Below, piece by piece: positions 54,059-59,025 of a DNA stretch of 64,000 nt. The position numbers and the translations under genes were made by a program. The notes below the pieces were generated by a model. That model made no database searches. It saw only the letters and a list, made by a program, of their open reading frames with translations, and had not been told where the DNA came from. Positions within the stretch are counted from its first letter, which is position 1; every line of letters begins with the position of its first letter. Origin of the DNA: Nitrosopumilus sp. Nsub (GTDB lineage Archaea > Thermoproteota > Nitrososphaeria > Nitrososphaerales > Nitrosopumilaceae); contig NZ_LQMW01000021.1 of NCBI RefSeq assembly GCF_001541925.1, positions 1-64,000 of the forward strand, written 5' to 3'.

Positions 54059-54403
54059 TTGTCAGAAAAAAATGAAGATCGATTAGATGAAATTTTCAAA
54101 CTTCAAAAAGGTCTGTCTGAAGTAATGAAATTAGATAGATATCCTAAAGATACTGAAGGTAGAGTATCAGCATTATGTACTGCAATTATGCATGAAGCAG
54201 TCGAATTACAAAGAACTACAAATTGGAAATGGTGGAAAACACCTACTGAATTTAATCAAAATGAGGCTAGAGAAGAATTAATTGACATATGGCATTTTGT
54301 AGTTCAGGCATCATTAGAATTGAAATTAACACCTGATGATATTTTAGATGAATACAAAAGAAAAAACCAAATTAATCATGAAAGACAAAAAAACGGTTAC
54401 TAG
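54059..54403 (+). CDS. All-alpha NTP pyrophosphatase (dimeric dUTPase-like)
   Basis: 114 residues with a TTG start. The metal-binding pattern of the all-alpha NTP-PPase superfamily is present: AIMHEAVELQ, WKWWKT and REELIDIWHFVVQASLEL, close to dimeric dUTPase/MazG-like proteins. The WKWWK motif is typical of the dUTPase-like branch. It would clear dUTP or other unwanted nucleotides. The gene overlaps the end of the MtrA-like gene by four bases. Confidence 0.85.
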   Translation: MSEKNEDRLDEIFKLQKGLSEVMKLDRYPKDTEGRVSALCTAIMHEAVELQRTTNWKWWKTPTEFNQNEAREELIDIWHFVVQASLELKLTPDDILDEYKRKNQINHERQKNGY

Positions 54404-54876
54404 TTTGATTGAATTTTTTTAATAATTAATTGCATATTTGTTTCATTAATCAAATTTACAAGAGTAATTTCTTTTTGAAAATACTGAATTTGGGAATTTG
54501 AAACAGTTAGAATCGGTTCAGGACTAGTTGAATTGATAATTCTGTAATTCTTGTCAACCCCATATTTATGCAATTGAAATAATGAGTGACCTGATTTGTG
54601 ACCCCAAACTTCCTTTCCACATACAATAATTGTTTTAATTTTTTTATTTTGATTAACACATTTTATAATTGAATCAATTCCTTTGTTTTCAGTAAATAAT
54701 CTTCCAGCTATTGCAACATTTTCAATAATTTCAGAGTTTTTTAATTCTTTTAGTAATTTTATACTAGAAAGTGTACAAATACAAATTGATGAATTAGTGT
54801 TACCAATATAGAATTCTTCAGGAATAGGTAGAAGAACCTCACAAAGTTTTCCAATTACGTCACTTAATTTATTCAA
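54400..54876 (-). CDS. MtrA-like protein (methyl-tetrahydromethanopterin:CoM methyltransferase subunit A family)
   Basis: 158 residues. The family pattern is seen in AIAGRLFTENKGIDSIIKC, then IIVCGKEVWGHKSGHSLFQL, with His93 matching the corrinoid-binding His of MtrA. A later stretch (LTVSNSQIQYFQKEITLVNL) fits the end of the soluble domain; no membrane helix is visible. No other Mtr subunit is in the window, and ammonia oxidisers do not make methane, so it must serve another purpose. Its start overlaps the DegT aminotransferase gene by four bases. Confidence 0.75.
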   Translation of the reverse strand: MNKLSDVIGKLCEVLLPIPEEFYIGNTNSSICICTLSSIKLLKELKNSEIIENVAIAGRLFTENKGIDSIIKCVNQNKKIKTIIVCGKEVWGHKSGHSLFQLHKYGVDKNYRIINSTSPEPILTVSNSQIQYFQKEITLVNLINETNMQLIIKKIQSN

Positions 54877-55955
54877 AGTATTTCAAAAATTGATTTAGAA
54901 ATAAATTCAATATTTTTTGTAGTTACTTTAGGATGTATTGGTAAAGAAAGTACTTTTGAAGCAGCCCATTCAGTTATTGGTAATTTTGTTTTAGATTTGT
55001 AAAAGGGGGTTTTGTGAACAGGTGTTGGATAATACGAGGCTGCACCCACTCCTTTTTCATTAAGTTTTTTCAAAAGAGTATTACGTTTTGGTGAAGTAAC
55101 AGTGTAAAGATACCAATTTACTTTTTCATGTTTTCTTTGAATCGGTAAAGTAAGATTTGATTTGGAAAGTAATTCTGTTAAAAGTTCTGCATTTTTTTGT
55201 CTTGCTTTCAAAAATTTTGGTAATTTTTTCATTTGTACTTGTGCAATTGCCGCATTTATTTCAGGTAATCTCAAATTAAGACCAAGGATTCTTGTATCAT
55301 ATCCTTTTACCATTCCGTGATTTCTAATCATCAATAATTTGTCTCGTAATTTTTTGCTGTTTGTAACAATAAATCCTCCTTCACCTGCAGTCATCACTTT
55401 TGCCGGGTACATACTATAGCATCCCATTTCAAAAAATGTTCCCGTATGTTTATTTTTAAAAGTAGATCCAAGTGATTGAGCAGAATCTTCTATTATTGGT
55501 ATATTGTATTTTTTAGCAATCTCAGAAATTTTATCCAAATAAGCCACATTCCCATATAGGTGTACAGGAACAATTGCTTTGGATTTTTTTGTAATTTTTT
55601 TCTCAAGTTGATCTGGATCCATTGTAAAATTATCTTTTAGAATATCGACAAAAACAGGTTTTGCACCAGTAGAAAGTACAGAATTTGCAGTTGCAACAAA
55701 AGTGAATGATGGAATTAAAACTTCATCACCATGTTTGATATCTAAAGCATAAAGTGCTGCTTGTAATGCTGCAGTTCCAGAATTTACAGCAATCGTATAT
55801 TTTGAATTTACAAATGAAGAAACTGATTTTTCAAAATTTTGAACATGTTTTCCGCCTTGATTTGCTGAAGAAGTTAAAGCACTGTTTTTAAGAATAGAAG
55901 TGACTACTGAAATTTCTTCCTTGCCTACAAAAGGAATGTTTATGGGTATTTTCAA
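54873..55955 (-). CDS. DegT/DnrJ/EryC1-family aminotransferase
   Basis: 360 residues. PLP-dependent enzyme for amino-sugar formation, with Asp157 (IIEDSAQSLG), Lys186 (CYSMYPAKVMTAGEGG) and the start PINIPFVGKEEI. Typical products are UDP-amino sugars for glycans. It is followed by the MtrA-like gene with a four-base overlap; the sugar-nucleotide partner genes are not in the window. Confidence 0.93.
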   Translation of the reverse strand: MKIPINIPFVGKEEISVVTSILKNSALTSSANQGGKHVQNFEKSVSSFVNSKYTIAVNSGTAALQAALYALDIKHGDEVLIPSFTFVATANSVLSTGAKPVFVDILKDNFTMDPDQLEKKITKKSKAIVPVHLYGNVAYLDKISEIAKKYNIPIIEDSAQSLGSTFKNKHTGTFFEMGCYSMYPAKVMTAGEGGFIVTNSKKLRDKLLMIRNHGMVKGYDTRILGLNLRLPEINAAIAQVQMKKLPKFLKARQKNAELLTELLSKSNLTLPIQRKHEKVNWYLYTVTSPKRNTLLKKLNEKGVGAASYYPTPVHKTPFYKSKTKLPITEWAASKVLSLPIHPKVTTKNIEFISKSIFEIL

Positions 55956-57187: not shown

Positions 57188-58234
57188 TTGGATATAATTG
57201 AAAAAGTAGATTTAATTGAAAAACCTCCTACTGAAGAGGTTGTAACACGTGAAGAATTAATTGAATTATTTAAAACGAATTCATCTCCAAATCATTACAT
57301 TGGTTTAGAAATTTCTGGATTTTTACATTTAGGTAGTTTGATCAGTACAGGTTTTAAAATAAATGATTTTGTGAAAGCAGGAGTTAATTGCAAAATTTTT
57401 CTTGCAGATTGGCACACTTTAATCAATGATAAATTAGGAGGAGATTGGGACACAATTTCTAAGGTTTCAAAATACTATCAAGATGCTTTCAAACTCGTTT
57501 GTCCAAATGCAGAAATTGTTTTAGGTTCTAAATTGTATGAAGAAAAAACAGAGTATTGGGCTGAACTTGTAAAATTTACAAAACATATGTCAATCGCTAG
57601 AACAATGCGAACATTAACGATAATGGGTCGTTCTGAAGATGATAACAAAATAGATGTAGCTAAATTACTTTATCCAGCAATGCAAGCAGTTGATATTCAT
57701 TCTTTAGATGTTGATATTGCACATGCAGGAATGGATCAAAGAAAAATTCACATGTTAGTAAGAGAGATTTTTCCTAAAATGAAATGGAAAGTTCCAGTTT
57801 CTGTTCATCATAAATTATTACCAGGACTCTCAAAACCAGCTGATACTGAGAATTCCCAAGTTTTAGGAAAAATGAGCAAATCAGACCCAAACTCAGGCAT
57901 ATTTATTCACAATACCGACAATGAAATTAAGAAAAAGATTAGCAAATCTTGGTGTGAAGAACAAAATGTTGAAAGTAATCCAGTATTAGAAATTGCAAAA
58001 AATGTAATTTTTCATGAATTTAATGAAATGAATGTTGAAAGACCAGAAAAATACGGTGGTAATGTTTCATATTCTAATTACGATGAGCTACATTCAGATT
58101 TTGCAGAAAATAAACTACATCCAGGAGATTTAAAACAAACTGTTGGGAACTATCTAGTTAAAGTGGTTAGTCCTATAAGAGAAAAATTAAATCTTAGTGA
58201 AGAGATTTCCGAAGCTATCAAGAAGAGTTTCTAA
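57188..58234 (+). CDS. tyrS: Tyrosyl-tRNA synthetase
   Basis: 348 residues, archaeal type. The HIGH-equivalent is HLGS at 47-50, the KMSKS loop is GKMSKSDPN, and the tyrosine pocket includes HAGMDQRKIHMLVRE. The start is TTG at 57188. It ends four bases past the start of the convergent cobJ stop codon overlap. Confidence 0.95.
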   Translation: MDIIEKVDLIEKPPTEEVVTREELIELFKTNSSPNHYIGLEISGFLHLGSLISTGFKINDFVKAGVNCKIFLADWHTLINDKLGGDWDTISKVSKYYQDAFKLVCPNAEIVLGSKLYEEKTEYWAELVKFTKHMSIARTMRTLTIMGRSEDDNKIDVAKLLYPAMQAVDIHSLDVDIAHAGMDQRKIHMLVREIFPKMKWKVPVSVHHKLLPGLSKPADTENSQVLGKMSKSDPNSGIFIHNTDNEIKKKISKSWCEEQNVESNPVLEIAKNVIFHEFNEMNVERPEKYGGNVSYSNYDELHSDFAENKLHPGDLKQTVGNYLVKVVSPIREKLNLSEEISEAIKKSF

Positions 58235-59025
58235 ACTTTTAGATTAGGATTAGTTTGTTCATGTAAATTATATTTTGATTTGTATCCTCTTGGATTGATC
58301 ATTAAATCTTTGTAGGTATATGTTGATGAATTACCAATTATCACAGTACTTGTCATACCCAACTCTTCATCAAAATTAAGTAAATTTTCTAAATCAGTCA
58401 TAACAATTGCTTCAGATTCTCTATACGCACTTTTAATAATTGCAACAGGAGTTGTAGGTTTCCTATGTTTTAGTAAGATTTTTTGTGTATCTTGTAATTG
58501 ATGAATCCTTTTCTTACTTTTAGGGTTATAGATTACTAGTACAAAATCACCTTGAGCAGCTGATTCTACACGTTTTTGAATTATCTCCCAAGGTACCATA
58601 AGATCACTCATACTAACAACAGCAAAATCAGTCATTAATGGTGAGCCAACAATCGATGCGCATGAATTCAAAGCTGATACTCCAGGAATAATTTCTACTT
58701 TAAGTTCATCAGAGGGAACCCAACCTGTTGCTGCAAGAGTTTCATAAATCAATCCAGCCATTCCATAAATTCCAGGATCTCCACTAGATACTAAAGAAAC
58801 AATTTTTCCAGATTTTGCAAGATCAATACACTGATGTGCTCTTTCAACTTCTTGAGTCATAGCATATCGGTGAATAGTTTTACCTCCTATGAGATCTTGA
58901 ACTAAATTTACATAAGTTTCATATCCAACAATAGTATCACTTTCAGAAATTACTTCTTTTGCTCGAAATGTCATATGATCATGGTGTCCAGGACCAACAC
59001 CAACAATGTAGAGTTTTCCAGTCAA
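58231..59025 (-). CDS. cobJ: Precorrin-3B C17-methyltransferase
   Basis: The SAM-dependent tetrapyrrole methylase fold protein (264 residues) acts in cobalamin ring contraction. It shows LYIVGVGPGHHDHMTFRAKE, SSGDPGIYGMAGLIYE and VEIIPGVSALNSCASIVG. Together with BluB it shows the organism makes its own B12. Neighbours are unrelated (tyrS and a surface protein), so the pathway genes are scattered. Confidence 0.93.
   Translation of the reverse strand: MTGKLYIVGVGPGHHDHMTFRAKEVISESDTIVGYETYVNLVQDLIGGKTIHRYAMTQEVERAHQCIDLAKSGKIVSLVSSGDPGIYGMAGLIYETLAATGWVPSDELKVEIIPGVSALNSCASIVGSPLMTDFAVVSMSDLMVPWEIIQKRVESAAQGDFVLVIYNPKSKKRIHQLQDTQKILLKHRKPTTPVAIIKSAYRESEAIVMTDLENLLNFDEELGMTSTVIIGNSSTYTYKDLMINPRGYKSKYNLHEQTNPNLKV

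Follow-up and report, generated by a model that had tools for sequence, protein, structure and literature searches.

A putative MtrA-type corrinoid carrier and its candidate split-barrel redox partner in ammonia-oxidising archaea

Nearly all genomes of the ammonia-oxidising archaeal (AOA) families were found to contain a gene for a soluble homologue of MtrA. The explanation that we favour, at a probability of about 0.42, is that this protein is a corrinoid carrier for methyl transfer whose cobalt is restored to Co(I) by a PNPOx-like protein. In the proposed mechanism the single-domain MtrA-like protein would bind cobalamin base-off/His-on through a conserved His-Glu pair, the PNPOx-like protein, as its putative ancestral partner, would most likely feed electrons from F420H2 or flavin to give Co(I), and the Co(I) carrier would take up a one-carbon group and then hand it on. 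We infer both the reductase role of the PNPOx-like protein and methyl transfer as the chemistry, each as the most likely assignment. Our wider proposal, that nearly all AOA possess a two-protein corrinoid system in which an MtrA-type carrier and a split-barrel F420/flavin reductase serve either methyl transfer or cobalamin activation, in aerobes and without MtrH, is advanced tentatively.

The starting point was a gene in the window, a 64,000-nucleotide stretch of contig NZ_LQMW01000021.1 from Nitrosopumilus sp. Nsub. As the earlier note had assumed, the host is not a methanogen: its genome (1.38 Mb, 99.6% complete) belongs, by its nearest relatives, to a Nitrosopumilus-type ammonia-oxidising archaeon. 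The gene starts with TTG and encodes a single-domain protein of 158 aa that is the only match to Pfam MtrA (PF04208) in this genome, with a score of 89.4 bits where the cut-off is 25 (E=2.8e-25). The corresponding NCBIfam model, PRK00964.1-4, is matched at E=2.4e-43, slightly below its cut-off, and the PDB matches are to the MtrA structures 5laa, 8q3v, 9qtq and 5l8x. Against the TIGR01111 equivalog the protein reaches 77 of the 249 bits required, and the C-terminal membrane helix expected by that model is absent, the sequence stopping where the soluble domain ends. An AlphaFold2 model (pLDDT 88.5) has a predicted MtrA-type Rossmann fold; its best Foldseek matches are 5laa and 5l8x (E about 3e-14), and it superposes on 5laa, the cobalamin-bound MtrA of Methanothermus fervidus, with TM 0.79 and rmsd 2.0 Å. 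The MtrA homology claimed in the earlier note is thus borne out by family model, PDB matches and predicted fold, and both the motif and the overlap with a DegT-type gene that it described are present (Table 1).

Table 1. The mtrA-like gene, its predicted cobalt-site codons and neighbouring genes in the window
Feature	Position	Strand	Basis
MtrA-like corrinoid protein (predicted)	54400..54876	-	PF04208, AlphaFold2 model vs 5laa, dN/dS
GKEVWGH motif, residues 87-93	54598..54618	-	alignment to 5laa
His codon of GKEVWGH, equivalent to cobalt ligand His84 of MtrA	54598-54600	-	alignment to 5laa
Glu63 codon, equivalent to MtrA Glu54	54688..54690	-	invariant in 43/43 AOA
DegT/DnrJ/EryC1 aminotransferase, upstream of the mtrA-like gene, 4-bp overlap	54873..55955	-	PF01041 E=6e-110
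dUTPase (dUTPase_2), convergent, overlapping the mtrA-like gene end by 4 bp	54059..54403	+	PF08761 E=2.8e-18
CobJ/CbiH precorrin-3B C17-methyltransferase (cobalamin biosynthesis), three genes from the mtrA-like gene, context only	58231..59025	-	TIGR01466 E=1.5e-92

According to crystal structures of MtrA (Wagner 2016, PMC4915002), His84 is the residue that holds the cobalt, and Glu54 hydrogen-bonds this His; contacts to the corrinoid or to its nucleotide tail are made by Lys52, Thr53, Asn55, Gly57, Val61 and Asn64. We mapped these positions onto 43 AOA representatives from four families. In the alignment, the equivalents of His84, Glu54, Asn55 and Gly57 are invariant in 43/43 sequences, and position 53 is always Ser or Thr. 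Conservation of the likely cobamide histidine in relatives had been set beforehand as a test on which the idea could fail; the residue is retained in all 43, and a GKEVWGH-type motif is found in 60/60 sufficiently long Nitrosopumilaceae loci. Together, the conserved ligand residues, the motif and the MtrA-like predicted fold make it likely that the AOA clade binds cobalamin base-off/His-on. Two tail contacts do differ across the 43 sequences, Lys52 being replaced by Leu or Phe and Asn64 mostly by Tyr, Phe or His, which suggests that the nucleotide-tail pocket may be altered in the AOA proteins.

To place the gene in a wider context, PF04208 was surveyed in 398 genomes of the phylum, of which 96 had a match, and in 121 sampled genomes of the order, of which 56 did; five of these 56 carry a distinct type seen in f74/f75. 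The AOA sequences form a single AOA-specific, vertically inherited clade (support 99/99), apart from the MtrA of Mtr complexes, from MtrA-thymidylate synthase fusions, and from a third group that has members in f74/f75. In these last, non-AOA genomes a gene for an ArsP-type permease immediately precedes the MtrA-type gene (L176:2536-5371, L177:145-2416, L178:1894-4869). Genes for DUF169 and a thioredoxin-like protein are found upstream, and in L177 a gene for an ArsR-type regulator follows downstream; a link of this MtrA type to a metalloid or organometal is possible.

The candidate partner emerges from gene order outside the Nitrosopumilaceae, where a PNPOx-like split-barrel gene stands immediately upstream of mtrA on the same strand in 16 of 21 AOA loci read, and where, judged by coordinates, the two are neighbours in about 24 of the 26 genomes having both (counted by eye). 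In the Nitrosopumilaceae the PNPOx gene is found at another locus, usually behind a conserved 92-aa ORF; at L118:5589-5867, for example, this ORF lacks a Pfam match and overlaps the PNPOx gene start by 4 bp. Within that family, 23 of the 24 mtrA-bearing genomes tested have the PNPOx gene, as against 3 of 6 lacking mtrA (Fisher p=0.018); this is weak support, as the comparison covers few, partly chosen and related, hence not independent, genomes. Exceptions run both ways, with mtrA lacking a close PNPOx in G307, G431, G475 and G479, and PNPOx occurring without an intact mtrA in G168, G295 and G342. Elsewhere in these neighbourhoods, in both f67 genomes the PNPOx-MtrA pair is immediately preceded by a gene for an ArsA-type ATPase with an HSP20-like tail (L127:6703-7878, L126:310-1485), and a 322-aa ORF upstream of mtrA in L109 has no Pfam or NCBIfam match.

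The PNPOx-like protein itself matches PF01243 (PNPOx_N) at E about 1e-17, and scores 44-48 bits against F420-class NCBIfam PPOX models whose cut-offs are 79-119, below all of them. Its predicted model (pLDDT 95.9) has a split-barrel fold, with Foldseek matches to 2hti, 5jv4 and 4zky at TMq 0.73-0.80. The predicted fold is shared with PPOX-class F420/flavin proteins such as Rv2074, Rv1155 and MSMEG_6526, although identity to these is low, at 12-20%. By itself this fold does not fix the cofactor, since FMN, FAD, F420 and haem proteins are all among the matches to the model; 5jv4, 5jab and 4qvb are examples of the flavin- and F420-binding split-barrel proteins. CobR-type corrinoid reductases are flavoproteins that reduce corrinoid cobalt for the CobO adenosyltransferase. 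The proposed likeness of the PNPOx-like protein to CobR is one of functional analogy only, CobR being of a different subfamily and working with no MtrA-like protein; the literature searched contained no paper linking a corrinoid reductase with split-barrel pyridoxamine-oxidase proteins.

If the MtrA-like protein carries methyl groups, one might look for a methyltransferase acting with it. MtrH (PF02007) was not found in the host genome or in eight other AOA genomes (nine searched), so that the earlier note's statement that other Mtr subunits are lacking is correct as to MtrH, and no methyltransferase partner for the MtrA-like protein was found, which counts against the favoured reading. Besides the MtrA-like protein, a B12-binding domain occurs in the host genome only in MetH and in a 143-aa protein of mutase small-subunit size.

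The main rival to a methyl carrier is cobalamin reduction and trafficking around CobA, which we consider somewhat unlikely. Here cob(II)alamin, newly made or oxidised, would sit on the MtrA-like protein until reduced by the PNPOx-like protein, and the product would be delivered either to the adenosyltransferase CobA/BtuR or to one of the apo-enzymes (MetH, methylmalonyl-CoA mutase, class II RNR). Besides the missing dedicated methyltransferase, it can draw on the presence of mtrA irrespective of methionine synthase type and on gene order: CobA/BtuR adjoins mtrA or lies one gene away in seven Nitrososphaeraceae loci from three genera (L106, identified by PF02572, and L107, L109, L111, L135, L170 and L173, identified by sequence likeness), and synteny of CobJ/CbiH with the mtrA-like gene is conserved across the Nitrosopumilaceae. 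However, each of these associations is limited to its own family, with f2 and f67 showing neither; MetH is kept in genomes without mtrA; and a His-Glu pair so strictly retained points to cobalt chemistry rather than passive carriage.

It is less probable again that the protein is a relic domain that has lost cobalamin binding, or that it has a minor structural or sensory role. The mtrA-like gene does evolve faster than all its neighbours, its tail contacts have changed, and it has been lost repeatedly: it is pseudogenised in G342 and G295, deleted in G168 with a short remnant left, and absent from G362 and G075, where DegT and dUTPase abut directly. The gene is therefore not essential. Nevertheless, its dN/dS of about 0.17 indicates purifying selection, the MtrA fold is predicted with high confidence, and His and Glu are constant in intact copies, while pseudogene sequence has lost the axial His (L113), which in the G342 pseudogene has become Gln. 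Decaying or deleted copies between intact DegT and dUTPase genes can be read directly at L113:9049-9518, L166:1660-2103 and L165:1578-1631, in three genomes of one genus.

A carrier of methyl groups for methionine synthesis would have a precedent, as MtrA has been predicted to be the methyl donor to the MesA core methionine synthases of methanogens (Price 2021, PMC7857596). For AOA we regard this as improbable. The host genome contains no PF01717 MetE/Mes protein and has a complete, split MetH, consisting of a homocysteine module and a module with its own pterin, B12 and activation domains; conversely, f2 and f67 genomes use MetE and have no MetH, yet they have mtrA. A methionine role is accordingly disfavoured, mtrA being found alongside either enzyme. 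Next to the split MetH of the host (L187:2326-5866) lies an MTHFR-like ORF that is very diverged (L187:1594-2325). MetH and a DHPS-type protein were the only pterin binders found, and no pterin link of the kind suggested in the earlier note emerged.

Still weaker is the case for a one-carbon carrier linked to thymidylate synthesis. A dUTPase gene is convergent with mtrA in Nitrosopumilaceae and in at least eight Nitrososphaeraceae loci, and other Thermoproteota have MtrA domains fused to archaeal thymidylate synthase. Convergent gene order is weak evidence, however; AOA rely on ThyX, as in the host genome, where tandem ThyX serves dTMP synthesis and no ThyA was found; and the ThyA-fused MtrA domains belong to a separate clade, with Ala or Cys at Glu54 in the four aligned fusions. 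We therefore rejected this link, and the literature searched contained no paper joining MtrA with thymidylate synthase and corrinoid. The fusions, with PF00303, are found at L071:1378-2694, L077:1432-2709, L084:230-1597 and L179:5569-7164; those of L071 and L077 match TIGR03283, and in L084 Tyr replaces the axial His in the alignment. ThyX was not found in the two fusion-bearing genomes searched (G343 and G373), and therefore the fusion may be their sole thymidylate synthase. In a further arrangement the MtrA domain is followed by PterinBD-DUF4346 (L074:1486-2718, L081:745-1986, L082:1474-2718, L078:58-1206), with the axial His kept in L078 and lost in the other three (SALFxPGQ).

The earlier note had instead suggested that the protein is coupled to the overlapping DegT aminotransferase, in a methyl-corrinoid step linked to a sugar or pterin. 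Within the Nitrosopumilaceae the arrangement is indeed regular: the order dUTPase> <mtrA <DegT held in 10/10 loci read, and among 62 named loci, some ending at contig edges, DegT is upstream on the same strand in 56 and dUTPase is convergent in 60, with a start giving the 4-bp overlap seen in the window available in 37 of the 56. The adjacency is confined to this family, except for a gapped version in one f67 genome, where DegT, ArsA, PNPOx and mtrA follow one another in a row (L127). This row suggests, without proving, that the close Nitrosopumilaceae arrangement is secondary and arose by loss of the intervening genes. When relatives were checked for the pairing, mtrA in other AOA families stood behind the PNPOx-like gene and not behind DegT, whose Nitrososphaeraceae relative is far from mtrA. 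Moreover, genomes in which mtrA is deleted (G168), pseudogenised (G295, G342) or absent (G075, G362) still have an intact DegT of high identity. Functional coupling to DegT is very unlikely on these grounds, and DegT was rejected as a partner.

The favoured carrier may be set beside several known systems. The soluble MtrA homologue of M. fervidus and the MtrA of Methanocaldococcus jannaschii (5laa, 5l8x; Wagner 2016, PMC4915002) share with the AOA protein the predicted fold (TM about 0.8) at 28-30% identity, the axial His and Glu relay, and a soluble domain without a transmembrane helix. The AOA protein differs from them in the two changed nucleotide-tail contacts, in having no MtrH partner that we could find, in its aerobic ammonia-oxidising host, and in its PNPOx-like neighbour in most AOA families. 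MtrA and MtrAH proteins of Asgard archaea, Bathyarchaeia and others likewise place the family outside methanogenesis; the published discussion of them concerns anaerobes and brings in MtrH and the Wood-Ljungdahl pathway (PMC9635834, PMC11291895). Compared with these, the AOA proteins are a separate clade without MtrH.

That MtrA homologues with a mostly conserved His84 occur in bacteria and non-methanogenic archaea was already noted in 2016. No description of AOA MtrA as a corrinoid protein, or of its PNPOx partner, was present in the literature searched, and both the clade and the partner appear to be undescribed there. A 2014 AOA genome paper (PMC4084955) lists one TIGRFAM-detected 'MtrA' per AOA genome in a table of two-component systems, as an osmotic-stress regulator; the protein so listed is probably the corrinoid-type MtrA under a mistaken name. 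Published uses of B12 in Thaumarchaeota are methionine synthase, ribonucleotide reductase and methylmalonyl-CoA mutase (Doxey 2014, PMC4303638). Ammonia oxidisers are among the most abundant microbes of sea and soil, and a conserved, probably cobalamin-binding protein with a likely redox partner in nearly all of them offers a concrete and testable additional B12 function. If the proposal is true, B12 would have a fourth role in microbes that are believed to produce much of the vitamin in the ocean, and a protein of methanogenesis would have been redeployed in aerobes.
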